From assembly GCA_027028145.1 (NCBI GenBank), contig JALVJV010000011.1:62001-126000 (forward strand): a stretch of 64,000 nt of DNA, written 5' to 3'. The notes beneath the pieces are model-generated. The model saw only the letters and a list, made by a program, of their open reading frames with translations, ran no database searches and was not told the origin of the DNA. Source of the stretch: Archaeoglobaceae archaeon. Lineage in GTDB: Archaea > Halobacteriota > Archaeoglobi > Archaeoglobales > Archaeoglobaceae. A program made the translations under genes and the position numbers. Shown in pieces: positions 25,033 to 34,689 of the stretch (the first letter of the stretch is position 1; every line of letters begins with the position of its first letter).

Positions 25033-25047
25033 TGAGAAATTTTGTGA
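25033..25047. promoter_or_regulatory. Candidate operator upstream of nifH
   Basis: TGAGAAATTTTGTGA is an imperfect palindrome whose right half TTGTGA equals that of the perfect palindrome TCACAAAAATTGTGA upstream of amtB (11 of 15 positions shared). It lies about 94 bp before the nifH ATG and upstream of the TATA candidates. The AT-rich background makes a chance match possible. Confidence 0.35.
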
Positions 25048-25080
25048 AAAATTTAGAGAAATATATAACTTTTTATTTAA

Positions 25081-25995
<915 letters not shown>

Positions 25996-25999
25996 TAGC

Positions 26000-26317
26000 A
26001 TGAAGCTGATAAAGGCTATCATAAGGCCGGAAAAGGTAGATGATGTTGTAGATGCCTTAAGCAAGGAGGGTTTTCCAGCCTTTACGAAGATCGACGTCGT
26101 TGGAAGGGGAAAGCAGGGTGGGCTTAGGATTGGCGAGTTCTACTACGACGAACTGCCGAAGACAATGCTACTCATAGCGGTGAACGATGAAGATGTCGGC
26201 AGGGTTGTCGAAATAATAAAGAAATCCGCATATACCGGAAACTTTGGAGACGGAAAGATATTCATCCAGCCGATAGAGGAAGCATACACGATAAGGACAG
26301 GAGAAACCGGAATCTAA
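26000..26317 (+). CDS. nifI1: Nitrogenase-regulating PII-like protein NifI1
   Basis: 105-residue PII family protein: MKLIKAIIRPEKVDDVVDALSKEG, GRGKQGGLRIGEFYYDELPKTMLLIAV (T-loop shorter than GlnK), and the ATP/2-oxoglutarate-binding C-terminal YTGNFGDGKIFIQPIEEAYTIRTGE. In methanogens NifI1 and NifI2 form a complex that blocks NifDK when ammonium is present and releases it with 2-oxoglutarate. Position between nifH and nifD is diagnostic. The gene starts 5 bp after nifH. Confidence 0.95.
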   Translation: MKLIKAIIRPEKVDDVVDALSKEGFPAFTKIDVVGRGKQGGLRIGEFYYDELPKTMLLIAVNDEDVGRVVEIIKKSAYTGNFGDGKIFIQPIEEAYTIRTGETGI

Positions 26318-26336: not shown

Positions 26337-26717
26337 ATGAAGGAGATCATAGCGATAGTAAGACCGAACAAGGTTACGAAGACCGCTAAAGCGTTGGAAG
26401 CCGTCGGATTTCCGGCTTTAACCGTCATCAAGTGTTTCGGAAGGGGAAAGCAGAGGGGTTATCTGGATGCCAATCTGCCGGATGTAGTTGATATCGAGAA
26501 GGTTGTGGAGGAAGGAGAGAAGCAGGGACTATACATGAAATACATTCCGAAGAGGTTGATTTCGATAGTGGTGAACGATCAGGACGTTCCGCTGGTGGTT
26601 GGAATTATAATGAAGGTAAACCGAACCGGAATGATAGGAGATGGGCGAATTTTCGTTTTGCCGGTTGAGGATGCAATTAGGGTTAGAACCGGAGAGGTTG
26701 GTGAAGAAGCTTTGTGA
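26337..26717 (+). CDS. nifI2: Nitrogenase-regulating PII-like protein NifI2
   Basis: 126 residues, PII family with the longer NifI2 T-loop: EIIAIVRPNKVTKTAKALEAVGF, CFGRGKQRGYLDANLPD, then a charged insertion (IEKVVEEGEKQGLYMKYIPKRLISIVVND) and RTGMIGDGRIFVLPVEDAIRVRTGE. It partners NifI1 in post-translational nitrogenase control. The SD AGGTGATTT follows a T7 run after nifI1, which might attenuate transcription. nifD starts 10 bp downstream. Confidence 0.95.
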   Translation: MKEIIAIVRPNKVTKTAKALEAVGFPALTVIKCFGRGKQRGYLDANLPDVVDIEKVVEEGEKQGLYMKYIPKRLISIVVNDQDVPLVVGIIMKVNRTGMIGDGRIFVLPVEDAIRVRTGEVGEEAL

Positions 26718-26726
26718 GGTGATTTA

Positions 26727-28165
26727 ATGCCGTTCATCCTGCTGAACTGCGATGAGTGTATTCCAGAAAGGATGAAGCACATATACGCTTACGATCCAGA
26801 AGAAGAAATAGTTCCGCTCTGTAATTCGAATACCGTTCCCGGAGATCTAACGGAAAGGGGTTGCGCCTTTGCCGGAGCGAGAGGTGTGGTTGGAGGGCCA
26901 ATAAAGGATGTTATTCACATGATCCATGGGCCTATAGGATGCGCGGTCTATACTTGGGGAACGAGGAGAAACCTCTCCGACAACGATCTCCATAGGAGAT
27001 ACTGCTTCTCCACCGATATGCAAGAAACCGATATCGTGTATGGTGGTGAAAAGAAGTTATACAAGGCTTGCATCGAAGCCAACGAGGAGTTTCCGCAGGC
27101 TAAGGGGATAATAATATATATACAACGTGCCCAACAGCGCTGATAGGGGACAACATTGAAGCGGTTGCGAAGAAGGTGGAGGATGAGATCAAGAAGCCGG
27201 TGGTTGCCATAAACAGCCCCGGATACGCTGGAGTTGGCCAGTCGAAGGGTCATCACATTTTCAACGTAACGTTTTACAGATACATAAGGAAGGCGAGGGA
27301 GAAGTTTCCGGAGAAGTGCCTTAAGGATGAGGAGAAGACACCATACGATGTAGCGCTCATCGGAGAATACAACATGGACTGGGATGTAGCGGTATGGAAG
27401 CCTTTGCTTGAGAAGATCGGATGCAGAGTCGTTGTAATCTTTACCGGCAACTCTTCAATCGACGACCTCTTCAAGTTGCCCGATGTGAAGCTGAGCATAG
27501 TCCTTTGCCAGAGATCTGCGGAATACATAGCGGAGATGATTCAGGATGGTTTCAACGTTCCGTTCATCAGGGTGAGCATGTTCGGTATAACTGAAACGAC
27601 GGAATCCCTATACAGGATTGCAGAAGCCCTCAACATTCCGAAGGAGAGGGTTGATAAGGTCGTTCGGGAAGAACTTGAAGCGATAAAGCCACAGCTCGAA
27701 TTCTATAGGGAGAAGTTCGAGGGGATGACTTGCCTATGCTATGTAGGAGCGCCGAGAACATGGCACTGGGTTATGGCTATGAAGGATTTAGGAATCGATT
27801 ACGTCGTTGCTTGCACGACCTTCGGACATGAGGAGGATTACGAGAAGATAAACAGGAATTTGAAGAAGGCTGGAATCAAGGGAGTCATAATAATAGATGC
27901 CCCCAACGAGCTTGAGCTTGAGGAGGCTATAAAGACGTTCCAGCCGGACTTTATGCTCACGGGCTTGAAGGAGAGATATCTCTTCAGGAAGTATGGAGTT
28001 CCGACGATCAACTCGCATTCCTACGAGCAGGGACCTTACGTAGCTTACAGAGGCTTCGTTAACTTTGCGAGGGACATCTACAAGGCCGTCTACCATCCAA
28101 TATGGAAGGTGCTGAGGGAAGGGGAAAAGAAGTTCGAGCCGTTCAAGGGTGGTGGAAATGGGTGA
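26727..28165 (+). CDS. nifD: Nitrogenase alpha subunit, split by a frameshift
   Basis: Two adjacent frames together make one 478-residue NifD. Frame 1 (26727-27143) ends soon after AKGIIIY. The continuation TTCPTALIGDN begins at 27122 in the -1 frame, inside ATAATAATATATATACA. Removing one TA unit restores exact family spacing. P-cluster Cys46 (ERGCAF), Cys72 (IGCAVY) and Cys134 (TTCP) are present, as are His175 (QSKGHH), cofactor ligand Cys260 (VLCQRSAEY) and His430 (NSHSYEQGPY). The sequence style is nearer to VnfD/AnfD and archaeal NifD than to Azotobacter NifD. No vnfG/anfG gene lies between nifD and nifK. The break may be a real mutation, recoding or a sequence error. Confidence 0.92.
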
Positions 28166-29546
28166 AATTTGCTACGTGGAAAAGCAGAGAGCGGTAACGA
28201 TAAATCCAAACAAGATCTGCCAGCCGATTGGAGCAATGTGGGCTACCTTGGGGGTTCACAGAGGAATTCCTTTCGTTCAAGGCTCTCAGGGATGTTGCAC
28301 ATACGTTAGATACACTTTCAACAGGCACTTCAGAGAGCCAGTTACGATTGCCGTCGCATCCTTCCACGAGCATGCCGCGGTTTACGGTGGAATGAAGAAT
28401 CTCGTTGAGGGCGTGTTTAACTTAGTTGCAAGATACGATCCAGACTTGATAGCCGTGATCACTACATGCTCATCTGAAACGATAGGAGACGATATAGAGG
28501 CGTTTATAAGGGCGGCTAAGAGGAAGATAGCCAACGAGTTGGGTGAGGAAAAGGCTCAACTGCCGATCATTCCCGTCCACTGTCCATCTTATCAGGGAAG
28601 CCACGTCACCGGATATGACAACGCATCCAAGGCTTACCTTGCTCATCTCGCCAAGAAGGAGGATGGAAGGGAGAAGCTGATAAACGTCATTCCGGGATTC
28701 GGAGTAAATCCCGGAGACATAGAGGAGATCAAGAGAATTTTGGACATGTTCGGTTTGAAGGAGAAGGAGGACTATTCGGTTTTATTCGACATAAGTGAAA
28801 CGCTGTATCAGCCCTTGCGAGAGCCGATAAGGGAGTTGCCGTATTATCCGAAGGGTGGAACTCTCGTTGAGGAATTCGTTGAAGCCGCTAACGCAAAGGC
28901 TACCTTCGCTCTCTGTCAGCATGCTGGTGGGAGTGGAGCTCTCTATTTGAAGAACAAATTTGGAGTCGAGCCATACTTCGGCTTACCTATAGGAATAAAG
29001 AATACGGACAACTTCGTCATCAACGTAGCAAAGGTAACGGGTTTGGAAATTCCGGATAAGCTCTTGGATGAGAGGGGAAGGCTGATCGATGCCATCGTCG
29101 ATACTGTTCACTACACGATGAATGTCAGAGTTGGAATCTTCGGAGATCCGGATTTCGTCATAGCGATAACGAGGTTCTGCTGTGAGATAGGGCTTAGACC
29201 CGTTGTCGTGAACACTCAGACGCCTTCCAAGATATACAAGCAGGAGATGGAAAAGATAGCCAAGGAATACGATGTAACGTTTGAGGTTCAGTTTTCTGAC
29301 CTTTGGGACTTCGAGAAGTCCGTTAAGGAGAAGGGTGTTGAGTTACTAATCGGACATCCGAGAGGTGGGGTTAAGCTGGCTGAAGAACTCGGCATCGGGC
29401 TTGTTAGAGTCGGATTCCCGATATACGACAGAGTCGGATACTTCAGATGGCCGATTGTGGGTTATAGAGGTAGCTTGAGGTTGTTCGATGAGATAGTGAA
29501 CACGATCCTCGATACACGTGTCCCGTGGGATCAGAAGCAACAGTGA
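28158..29546 (+). CDS. nifK: Nitrogenase beta subunit
   Basis: 462 residues from ATG 28158, overlapping the nifD stop by 8 bp with a GGTGG SD inside nifD. P-cluster ligands Cys21 (NKICQPIGA), Cys46 (GSQGCC) and Cys104 (TTCSSETIGDD) are present, as are the PSYQGSHVTGYDN segment and IRVGFPIYDR-like VRVGFPIYDRVGYFRWP. The frame is intact, in contrast to nifD. It is short for NifK (Azotobacter about 520), lacking the N-terminal extension, as in archaeal and VnfK-type proteins. With NifD it forms the catalytic heterotetramer. Confidence 0.95.
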   Translation: MGEICYVEKQRAVTINPNKICQPIGAMWATLGVHRGIPFVQGSQGCCTYVRYTFNRHFREPVTIAVASFHEHAAVYGGMKNLVEGVFNLVARYDPDLIAVITTCSSETIGDDIEAFIRAAKRKIANELGEEKAQLPIIPVHCPSYQGSHVTGYDNASKAYLAHLAKKEDGREKLINVIPGFGVNPGDIEEIKRILDMFGLKEKEDYSVLFDISETLYQPLREPIRELPYYPKGGTLVEEFVEAANAKATFALCQHAGGSGALYLKNKFGVEPYFGLPIGIKNTDNFVINVAKVTGLEIPDKLLDERGRLIDAIVDTVHYTMNVRVGIFGDPDFVIAITRFCCEIGLRPVVVNTQTPSKIYKQEMEKIAKEYDVTFEVQFSDLWDFEKSVKEKGVELLIGHPRGGVKLAEELGIGLVRVGFPIYDRVGYFRWPIVGYRGSLRLFDEIVNTILDTRVPWDQKQQ

Positions 29547-29555
29547 GGTGATGAA

Positions 29556-29867
29556 ATGAAGGTAGTCAGGGTTAGGTTTTACGACAGGTTGGGTAGGATC
29601 GCTCAAAACGGTAACTTCGCATACATAACGTTCCACATCGGAGAGGACTTAAAGCCGAAGGACGGCGATCTGCTCGTTCAGGTGACGAACGTCAAGGGTA
29701 TTCCCATACTGGTTGCAAAGTTCATAACCGGGGAGTTCTTAGCCGCGTTCAGAAAGCCCGTTGATATTAAGAGCTTGGACGAGCTTAAGACGAGGTTTCG
29801 GGTGCCGGATGATGTTGTTGAGGAGATCAGAAGGATATGCAGGGAGAAGGGAATAGACTGGATTTAG
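29556..29867 (+). CDS. Unknown protein encoded in the nif operon (A)
   Basis: 103 residues, not recognised. The N-terminal two thirds look beta-rich (KVVRVRFYDRLGRI, FAYITFHIGEDLK, DLLVQVTNVKGIPILVAKF) and the end is helical (DDVVEEIRRICREKG). One Cys, no metal motif. It follows nifK by 9 bp with a GAGGTGATGAA SD and precedes another small gene by 14 bp, so it should be made with nitrogenase. It shows no resemblance to NifX, NifW, NifZ, AnfO or VnfG/AnfG that I can see. A role in nitrogenase assembly or protection is a guess from position. Confidence 0.85.
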   Translation: MKVVRVRFYDRLGRIAQNGNFAYITFHIGEDLKPKDGDLLVQVTNVKGIPILVAKFITGEFLAAFRKPVDIKSLDELKTRFRVPDDVVEEIRRICREKGIDWI

Positions 29868-29881
29868 TTTGAGGTGACGGT

Positions 29882-30151
29882 ATGAACGCGCTGATATACA
29901 TGGAGCTCGATCCAAAGGTTCAGGATCTAAGGATTGCGTTCGAGAAGGCTGTTACTGCAAGGAAGAAGACGTTGTTTTTAGATGCTTATCTAAGGTTTTT
30001 CGAGAAGCTTGAGGAGTTCAAAAGACTCGCTAAGAAGCTTGGGCTGAGCGAGGAAGACATTTACAGATACTTTCCGGATGTAGGATATATGGAAAGGAGC
30101 GTTAGGGAGCGATACGAGGAGTGGATGTCTTCAAAATTTTCCCAGAACTAA
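29882..30151 (+). CDS. Unknown helical protein encoded in the nif operon (B)
   Basis: 89 residues, predicted all-helical (VQDLRIAFEKAVTARKKTLFLDAYLRFFEKLEEFKRLAKK), no Cys. The ending LSEEDIYRYFPDVGYMERSVRERYEEW is rich in aromatics. SD GAGGTGACGG precedes the ATG. Last gene of the nif operon, ending four bases from the convergent glycosylase gene. The size and helical nature invite comparison with the small delta subunit of V/Fe nitrogenases, but I see no convincing sequence match. Function unknown. Confidence 0.85.
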   Translation: MNALIYMELDPKVQDLRIAFEKAVTARKKTLFLDAYLRFFEKLEEFKRLAKKLGLSEEDIYRYFPDVGYMERSVRERYEEWMSSKFSQN

Positions 30152-30154
30152 ATT

Positions 30155-30772
30155 TTATTTGAGTATTTTGCCAGTCATCTGAAACCACAAAATGAGATCG
30201 AGCTCGGCTAAAGATACACCCATTTCCCTACCAATTTTTCTGAGAATGTTCTCAATTTTTTTGTAAGTTCTTGCGCTCAAGCTGTTCGGAATCTCGCGGA
30301 TATATCCTTTTTCGTTCAGCCACCTGAGTATGTGCCTATCGATAATAGCGATGTCTTTCCTTCCTATATTCCTCAAAAAGTGGCTGGCTTCCTTGTATCC
30401 CAACCCCCTCACATTCTTAACCAAATACTCTCTTGCCTCAGAGCTTTTTAGTCTTAAAGCTCGTTCTATTAGTTCAAAGTTTTGCAACGCTTCGAATATG
30501 TATTTCGCTTTTCTACTCCAGAATCTAACGCCTGCGGATCTCAAAAGATTCTCTATACCGTTCAGCGTTAAGGTTTTCAAATTTTCCAGCGATTTCTGAA
30601 ATTTCAAGCCGGAAATAGCCGAGGAATTTGCTGTGGATATGCAAAAGGCTAATTCGGTTTGAATCGTCGCCCTAACCTTAAGATCTACAAAAGGGTTGAA
30701 GTCGAAAATCACAATTCCGTTTTTTCCAAGCTTTTCAAACTCTTCGAGTCTCCTCTTTATGACTGATTCCAT
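30155..30772 (-). CDS. ogg: N-glycosylase/DNA lyase, OGG2 type
   Basis: 205 residues. The helix-hairpin-helix active site is clear: VRGLGYKEASHFLRNIGRKDIAIIDRHILRWL, with the catalytic Lys in GYKEASH and the Asp in IIDRHIL. The N-terminal ATIQTELAFCISTANSS and VRFWSRKAKYI also match archaeal Ogg2. The enzyme removes 8-oxoguanine and nicks the abasic site. It converges with the nif operon and diverges from a ferredoxin gene. Confidence 0.92.
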   Translation of the reverse strand: MESVIKRRLEEFEKLGKNGIVIFDFNPFVDLKVRATIQTELAFCISTANSSAISGLKFQKSLENLKTLTLNGIENLLRSAGVRFWSRKAKYIFEALQNFELIERALRLKSSEAREYLVKNVRGLGYKEASHFLRNIGRKDIAIIDRHILRWLNEKGYIREIPNSLSARTYKKIENILRKIGREMGVSLAELDLILWFQMTGKILK

Positions 30773-30806
30773 TCAGCTTAAATATCCCAAGAGGTCTTTA
30801 AGTCTT

Positions 30807-30986
30807 ATGATCCTGATAAATTACGATAGATGCAATAGTTGCGGAGAATGCGTAAAGGCTTGCCCGGCGAATGTGTTCGAGTTTTTGGAAGATACCGTGA
30901 TAGTTGCGAATCCTCAGGATTGTCTGATATGTTGCAACTGCGTTGACGTTTGCCCGAGAAAAGCTATCGTAGTTGAAGGTTGCTAA
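30807..30986 (+). CDS. Small 4Fe-4S ferredoxin
   Basis: 59 residues from ATG 30807 with a TATA box GCTTAAATAT about 27 bp upstream. It contains CNSCGECVKACPANVFEF and CLICCNCVDVCPRKAI, two [4Fe-4S] sites of the dicluster ferredoxin type (8 Cys plus extras). Its position between the nif operon and amtB makes it a candidate electron donor to NifH, but no other evidence ties it there. It ends overlapping the convergent RHH regulator by 4 bp. An in-frame longer reading from 30696 is antisense to ogg and rejected. Confidence 0.88.
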   Translation: MILINYDRCNSCGECVKACPANVFEFLEDTVIVANPQDCLICCNCVDVCPRKAIVVEGC

Positions 30987-31508
30987 AGCTTTAGTCTCAG
31001 CTTCATCAGATCTTCCTTAATCTCCACATTTAGCCCCATGTTCCTGAAGACCTCTTCCAAGAACATCTTTACGAACTTCTTCGTTGCCTCGTGATTCAAA
31101 ACTAAAGTCCACTCTCCGTTCTTGGCGTTTATTCTGAAGAAGTTGCAAGCTTCGAGTCTCTCAAGAACGTATTTCGCATCCTTACCTCTGAATTCCTCAG
31201 CATGAGCCCTCGCAACTTCCCGATGCATCTCCCAGAACTTCTCACTTTCCGGATGTGTTTCGATGAATCTCAGAAACGTAACCCAGTGATCTATGTCGAG
31301 AATTATGTGTTCACCTTCTGAAAGCATCTCAACGTAAGTCTTGACCTTCTTCCAATCGTATCGTTCCAATTCCCGATAATCGTGATAGAATTTCAAAGCC
31401 CTTCTTATCAATTCGCTTTGGGAATTTCTAAATTCCTCTTTGAGATCGTTTAGAATCTCGTAGCTTTCCTCGTCGAGAGCGACCGTTATTCTGATCGGAT
31501 TCTTCATG
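30983..31508 (-). CDS. Ribbon-helix-helix regulator, paralogue 1 (divergent from amtB)
   Basis: 174 residues from ATG 31508. An N-terminal RHH domain (IRITVALDEESYEILNDL..., NSQSELIRRALKFY) is joined to about 130 residues with EMLSEGEHIILDIDHW, FLRFIETHPE and LERLEACNFFRI. It is closely related over its full length to the regulator at 34156-34689; the two bracket amtB-glnK. A TATA-like CTTTTAAAT about 25 bp upstream suggests a leaderless start at 31508. The perfect palindrome at 31551-31565 lies between this gene and amtB, a natural operator. Nitrogen regulation is inferred from context only. Confidence 0.82.
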
Positions 31509-31550
31509 CTCAAAAGTAACCGCATCGATTTAAAAGTTTTTGTAAGATGT

Positions 31551-34155: not shown

Positions 34156-34689
34156 ATGAAGAAGCCTATTAGAGTTACGGTAGCTCTCGACGAAGAGAGT
34201 TACAGAATATTCAACCGTCTTAAGGATGAGATACGAGTTTCGCAGAGCGAATTGATCAGAAGGGTTCTCAAGTTCTATTCGATCTACAGGGATCTTGAAA
34301 GGTATGAGAGCGATAGGATAATGATCTACGTTGAGATGCTTTCAGAAGGTGAACACATAATTCTCGACATAGATCACTGGATTACCTTCCTAAGATTCAT
34401 AGAAACCCATCCGGAAAGGGACGAATTTTGGAAGATACACAGAGAGATCGCGAAGGCTCACGCAGAGCAGTTCGCGGGAAAGTCAGCTGAATACATATTG
34501 GAAAGACTCGAAGCCTGCAACTTCTTCAGAATAAATAAGGTTGCGGAAAACGAGTGGACGCTTATATTGGGCAACGAGATAACGAAGAACTTCATCAAGA
34601 TATTCCTCGAAGAAGTCTTCAGCGGAGTCGGAATAAACGCTGAGATCAAGGAAGATCTGACAAAGTTAAGGATTAAAATCAAGGTTTAA
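34156..34689 (+). CDS. Ribbon-helix-helix regulator, paralogue 2
   Basis: 177 residues, full-length paralogue of the regulator at 30983-31508 (by eye about two thirds identical). The RHH domain is IRVTVALDEESYRIFNRLKDE...VSQSELIRRVLKFY. The shared C-terminal part has EMLSEGEHIILDIDHW, FLRFIETHPE, LERLEACNFFRI and EIKEDLTKLRIK. A TATA-like AAACTTAAAG lies about 20 bp upstream. The identical His/Asp/Glu-rich motif could bind a metal or metabolite. Its 3' end overlaps the convergent amidotransferase by 24 bp. RHH is clear; target genes are inference. Confidence 0.82.
   Translation: MKKPIRVTVALDEESYRIFNRLKDEIRVSQSELIRRVLKFYSIYRDLERYESDRIMIYVEMLSEGEHIILDIDHWITFLRFIETHPERDEFWKIHREIAKAHAEQFAGKSAEYILERLEACNFFRINKVAENEWTLILGNEITKNFIKIFLEEVFSGVGINAEIKEDLTKLRIKIKV

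Follow-up and report, generated by a model that had tools for sequence, protein, structure and literature searches.

In Methanocaldococcus sp. FS406-22, three hypothetical genes designated hp1, hp2 and hp3, together with a ferredoxin gene (fd), are located 3´ of nifK (Lie et al., 2022; PMC8809328). hp1 and hp2 are confined to the nif clusters of thermophilic methanogens, and replacement of hp1-hp2-hp3-fd leaves growth on N2 unharmed at 75 °C, with no diazotrophic defect; a chaperone-like role was suggested by the authors for the hp genes (PMC8809328). In the M. thermolithotrophicus operon nifHI1I2DKXEN, the first gene after nifK is 'nifX', an archaeal gene with no homology to bacterial NifX, which is transcribed at the level of nifDK (PMC9765008).

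Here we analyze a window, which is a stretch of 64,000 nucleotides from a metagenome-assembled Archaeoglobaceae genome (G000; 1.52 Mb in 24 contigs, 99.91% complete) that contains two small genes, P1 and P2, at the end of a nif operon. P1 and P2 resemble hp1 and hp2 in that they are small, directly follow nifK on the same strand, contain no recognisable motif, occur in nif clusters of thermophilic archaea only, and have a ferredoxin gene nearby. They differ in the host, which is a methanogen for hp1/hp2 and a member of Archaeoglobaceae for P1/P2, and in that no hp3 follows P2. In FS406-22 the nitrogenase is functional and nifE and nifB are present, whereas the genome of the window lacks both genes and probably a working enzyme. 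The comparison is made by position, neighbourhood and distribution. The 'nifX' of M. thermolithotrophicus, which was likewise compared by position, also comes first after nifK, but is one gene rather than two. We infer from this comparison that P1 and P2 are probably hp1 and hp2. On balance, we favor the reading that they are the Archaeoglobaceae counterparts of these genes and would act on NifDK as non-essential factors, in an operon that in G000 would be a recent relic.

Organization of the nif operon

The open reading frames of the window give the order nifH-nifI1-nifI2-nifD (split)-nifK-P1-P2 on a single strand. The features are as follows (positions in the window):

25141..25995, + strand: nifH, 284 amino acids; above the cut-off of TIGR01287, 84–99% identical in relatives
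26000..26317, + strand: nifI1, PII-like; homologues in relatives at the equivalent position
26337..26717, + strand: nifI2, PII-like; homologues in relatives at the equivalent position
26727..27143, + strand: nifD 5´ fragment; frameshift after residue 131
27110..27129, + strand: nifD frameshift site; ATAATAATATATATACAACG here versus ATAATAATATACACAACG in the related genome G273, two bases more here
27176..28165, + strand: nifD 3´ fragment, 329 amino acids from an internal GTG
28149..29546, + strand: nifK, 465 amino acids; closest PDB entry 9SPZ chain B (915 bits, full-length alignment)
29556..29867, + strand: P1, 103 amino acids; nif-linked, beta strands and two C-terminal helices, candidate Hp1 counterpart
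29882..30151, + strand: P2, 89 amino acids; nif-linked, all-helical, candidate Hp2 counterpart

Against the NCBIfam models, nifK scores slightly under the cut-off of TIGR01286. P1 is separated from nifK by 9 bp and is preceded by the Shine-Dalgarno (SD) site GAGGTGAT, while P2 is separated from P1 by 14 bp and is preceded by the SD site GAGGTGA. The reading frames, lengths, spacings and ribosome-binding sites given by a first-pass annotation of this DNA were all reproduced. P1 and P2 would be translated off the nifHDK message. The next gene after P2, which encodes an 8-oxoguanine glycosylase, lies on the opposite strand. About 550 bp downstream of P2 there is a two-cluster ferredoxin-like gene (30696–30986), which recalls the fd that ends the hp1-hp2-hp3-fd cluster of FS406-22.

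Along its length, the window NifK shares ~78% identity with PDB 9SPZ/9SQ3 (read off the alignment), versus at most 51% with any NifK found in the phylum beyond the family, the closest being that of G169. This difference suggests that the nif cassette was probably moved between the family and another thermophile lineage, that is, by a probable horizontal transfer between thermophilic archaeal lineages. The source of 9SPZ is probably a hyperthermophilic methanogen, given that work on the M. infernus nitrogenase is reported by one laboratory. Small nif-linked genes that were probably known until now from thermophilic methanogens alone also accompany the Archaeoglobaceae nitrogenase, and their presence here argues for membership in a transferable thermophilic nif cassette.

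P1 and P2 are linked to nifK and under purifying selection

The search covered 394 genomes from the phylum, among them (by their handles) 55 of the family. P1 is present in seven genomes from two genera, and P2 adjoins it in the same seven. In all seven loci (G000 and six other Archaeoglobaceae genomes) the pair is co-directional with nifK and lies directly 3´ of it, which bears out the first-pass description of the two genes as fixed to the end of the nif operon. Amino acid identity to the six relatives is 62–94% for P1 and 53–94% for P2. Profile searches with the seven-member alignments revealed no further credible copy in the 394 genomes, and no credible match away from nif was found in these genomes or in 72,556 plasmids. 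A search for viral contigs carrying P1 and NifK found none. Outside the family, NifK relatives are present in ~70 members of the phylum in which P1/P2 were not found; in the loci that were read, nifK is followed by transporters, a ferredoxin, or nothing related. Because their place after nifK is constant and no credible homologue occurs elsewhere in the 394 genomes, P1 and P2 are regarded as true nif-linked genes. In G219, which has a Nif operon as well as a Vnf operon, P1/P2 accompany the Nif operon only; in G278 (76% complete) a Vnf operon alone was found, with neither P1 nor P2.

Two sets of profile matches were rejected. Those of P1 in ~300-residue proteins of many genomes stem from one short helical stretch ('REKGID') of MinD/ferredoxin-like ATPases. 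Those of P2 in six Methanosarcina-like genomes (E 0.002–0.007) were not accepted as homologues; in the four genomes that were read, the match is a 140-residue gene beside a conserved membrane-protein gene, away from nif.

For pairs with unsaturated dS, dN/dS is ~0.08–0.12 for P1 and ~0.09–0.17 for P2, while most NifH and NifK pairs give lower values of ~0.02–0.06. P1 and P2 are therefore under purifying selection and evolve faster than the nitrogenase; accessory proteins often evolve faster than the enzyme they accompany. Their recurrence together with the low dN/dS shows that they are real genes, beyond chance open reading frames.

Sequence and predicted structure of P1 and P2

The AlphaFold2 model of P1 (pLDDT 89) contains six strands followed by two C-terminal helices, and that of P2 (pLDDT 90) is an all-helical bundle of four helices, of which helix 2 spans 24 residues. 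These models agree with the first-pass view of P1 as beta-rich with a helical tail and P2 as all-helical. The homologue alignments reveal invariant His27 and Cys95 in P1 and an invariant YFP motif in P2. Neither the two proteins nor their homologue alignments gave a credible relative in Pfam, NCBIfam or PDB sequences, and Foldseek searches of both models against the PDB gave nothing at E < 0.001. In the PDB, the dTor designs matched by the P2 profile and the TetR/SlmA proteins matched by P2 were rejected as low-complexity or chance helix matches. The earlier label 'unrecognised' is thus apt with respect to the family libraries; it does not hold if the pair is hp1/hp2, as is probable, since those genes have already been described and deleted in FS406-22.

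The empty searches in Pfam, NCBIfam and the PDB, with neither family, fold nor sequence relative, are also what would be expected if P1 and P2 formed an undescribed accessory family unrelated to hp1/hp2, whose role in Archaeoglobaceae would be to deliver cofactor to NifDK or to protect or regulate it, with His27 and Cys95 of P1 as possible cofactor ligands. However, the position and distribution of the pair closely match those of hp1/hp2, and the nitrogenase is near the solved 9SPZ, probably that of a hyperthermophilic methanogen, so we consider this reading unlikely. A more specific version, in which P1 and P2 are a new nitrogenase-bound pair of hot-spring Archaeoglobaceae unrelated to hp1/hp2 (such as a module for cofactor insertion or protection against heat that arose in parallel to VnfG, NafY or CowN), appears distinctly improbable.

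P2 might also be a small protein that binds DNA or regulates the operon, given that its segment 47–68 faintly resembles the TetR recognition helix. Weak TetR_N, SlmA and RutR matches fall on the same P2 residues (E 0.017 to ~1), and the YFP motif is invariant. Yet the TetR_N match occurs in just two of the seven P2 homologues and always under the gathering score, the 24-residue helix 2 of the model contrasts with the short helix of a helix-turn-helix, and there is no TetR protein among the top Foldseek matches, which together leave this role most improbable.

The alpha subunit is of the molybdenum type and P2 does not resemble a delta subunit

The first-pass annotation had proposed a delta-type subunit for P2 and a VnfD/AnfD-like alpha subunit as its partner. 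A VnfG/AnfG-like P2 would be bound to the alphaIII domain of NifD, which AnfG is known to stabilise (PMC10803253), and P1 would be an accompanying maturation factor. P2 shares with VnfG/AnfG its small size, its all-helical character and its location in a nitrogenase operon. As for the alpha subunit, the window NifD clade, including G169, is indeed the sister of VnfD in the tree (93/99 support). At the diagnostic cofactor-pocket sites (McGlynn et al., 2013; PMC3578447), however, the window NifD is Mo-type at all residues read, with Gly69 (CAFAGARGVVG), Thr380 (ACTTFGH) and Arg428 (TGLKERY) rather than the V/Fe-type Leu/His69, Lys380 and Gly428; VnfD of the relatives has Leu69 and Gly428. The window NifD shares Gly69, Thr380 and Arg428, as well as RRN at the Arg96 motif, with the 'uncharacterized' Mo-type lineage of hydrogenotrophic methanogens, Methanocaldococcus among them, and ANME archaea (PMC3578447), from which the window differs in its frameshifted nifD. 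With Mo-type residues in the alpha subunit, no delta subunit is expected.

P2 itself also argues against the proposal. Profile-profile alignment of P2 with VnfG by hhalign gives a probability of 0.7%, the VnfG/AnfG models TIGR02930/TIGR02929 miss P2 and its homologues while recognising the true VnfG of relatives, and Foldseek of the P2 model gives no match to known delta chains. P2 is located after nifK and P1, whereas true VnfG, with its CLWQFF motif, is encoded between vnfD and vnfK in G219, G278 and the Methanosarcina-like G380 and is recognised by TIGR02930; in G219 and G278 it occurs separately. The sister lineage G169 has neither a G subunit nor P2, and hp2 is dispensable as published, which applies here if P2 is hp2. 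A delta-type P2 is therefore very unlikely.

The operons of G219 (L056 2372–9401) and G278 (L062 3970–12157) are vnfDGK-like and accompanied by nifE/nifN-like genes, and these two Archaeoglobaceae genomes apparently carry a vanadium-type nitrogenase. As read from the sequence, nifBEN in G069 and G174 precedes apparent genes for homocitrate synthase and for an ABC transporter of the molybdate type, pointing to molybdenum.

Probable decay of the nif operon

A split of nifD upstream of P1/P2 was missed in the first-pass annotation. The split occurs at an ATA/TA run that has two bases more than in G273, and nifD is read through in one frame in G273, G081 and others. The CPTALIGD segment, which holds a P-cluster cysteine, lies in neither nifD reading frame, and no canonical start codon includes it; the P-cluster role of this cysteine is established for nitrogenases. 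Of the G081 reading frames that the window shares, ten align in a single frame and nifD is the sole split one. nifB, nifE and nifN were not found in G000 at its 99.91% completeness. In G081, nifBEN adjoin a conserved reading frame and an adenylosuccinate-lyase-like gene, while the same stretch in G000 is contiguous and nifBEN-free. The set for a functional Mo nitrogenase (intact nifD and nifB, usually with nifE and nifN) is thus incomplete in G000.

Related genomes show decay of different extents. In G112, nifH is gone, nifD, nifK, P1 and P2 are all broken and a frameshifted nifN remnant is present, while almost all flanking genes of the locus are intact. nifI2 is broken in G273, a piece of nifK is all that G136 keeps, and in G141 a nifN-like gene persists in fragments. 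nifD, nifK, nifB, nifE and nifN are kept in G081 and in the genus-g7 genomes G069, G174, G219 and G302, although the nifB match of G219 contains one stop codon. Repeated loss of nitrogen fixation is apparent within this Archaeoglobaceae genus (G000, G112, G273 and G136), with G081 retaining the nif structural genes together with nifBEN. In G081 (L058 8535–10328), an apparent gene for the catalytic subunit of carbon-monoxide dehydrogenase lies ~700 bp after P2 on the same strand.

The frameshifted nifD, the absence of nifB, nifE and nifN, and the decay in sister genomes indicate that the nif operon of G000 is most likely a relic and that this organism probably no longer fixes nitrogen. The expectation that P1 and P2 are produced with nitrogenase is therefore not supported for this genome. 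NifK of the G000-G112 pair gives a dN/dS of 0.06–0.09 versus ~0.02–0.06 in other pairs; since selection is but mildly relaxed, any decay would be recent.

The opposite reading is that the operon is intact and functional in G000, with P1 and P2 expressed alongside a working nitrogenase. The shift in nifD is one difference of two bases within a TA-rich run and could have arisen during assembly, and the breaks between the 24 contigs leave room for nifBEN; nifH, nifI1, nifI2, nifK, P1 and P2 are all intact and conserved. However, three cofactor genes are missing from an almost complete genome, nifD alone is split among the window reading frames shared with G081, and decay has occurred independently in G112, G273 and G136, which makes an intact operon rather improbable.

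Nitrogenase operons at different points of decay in a single genus constitute a natural experiment, in which the order of gene breakage, and the retention of P1/P2 relative to nifDK, bear on the function of P1/P2.

Proposed role of P1 and P2

As hp1/hp2 counterparts, P1 and P2 would be lineage-specific accessory genes of a thermophilic archaeal nif operon type (nifH-I1-I2-D-K-P1-P2). Our best guess is that their products act on NifDK as conditional factors of assembly or stability, small and non-essential and distinct from a structural delta subunit, which may be needed under some conditions alone, such as heat or metal limitation. In G000, the pair would probably be out of nitrogen-fixation service, as part of a recent relic.

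Regulation and neighbouring genes

The NrpR operator of methanogens, GGAA-N6-TTCC, is absent upstream of nifH in the nif loci of the window and its relatives. At 25040–25110, upstream of nifH, there is a TTTTGTGAAA-like element together with a BRE/TATA-like AAAAAGATTTATAT, both of which are kept in most relatives; this is possibly a nif operator other than that of NrpR. Beside nif, amtB-glnK is flanked by two paralogous ribbon-helix-helix proteins (30983–31525, − strand, and 34156–34689, + strand) that are 70% identical to each other. Their homologues (51–56%) are located directly upstream of nifH in the other archaeal nif loci L143, L148 and L149, and the ribbon-helix-helix proteins near nif are a candidate family of nitrogen-response regulators.
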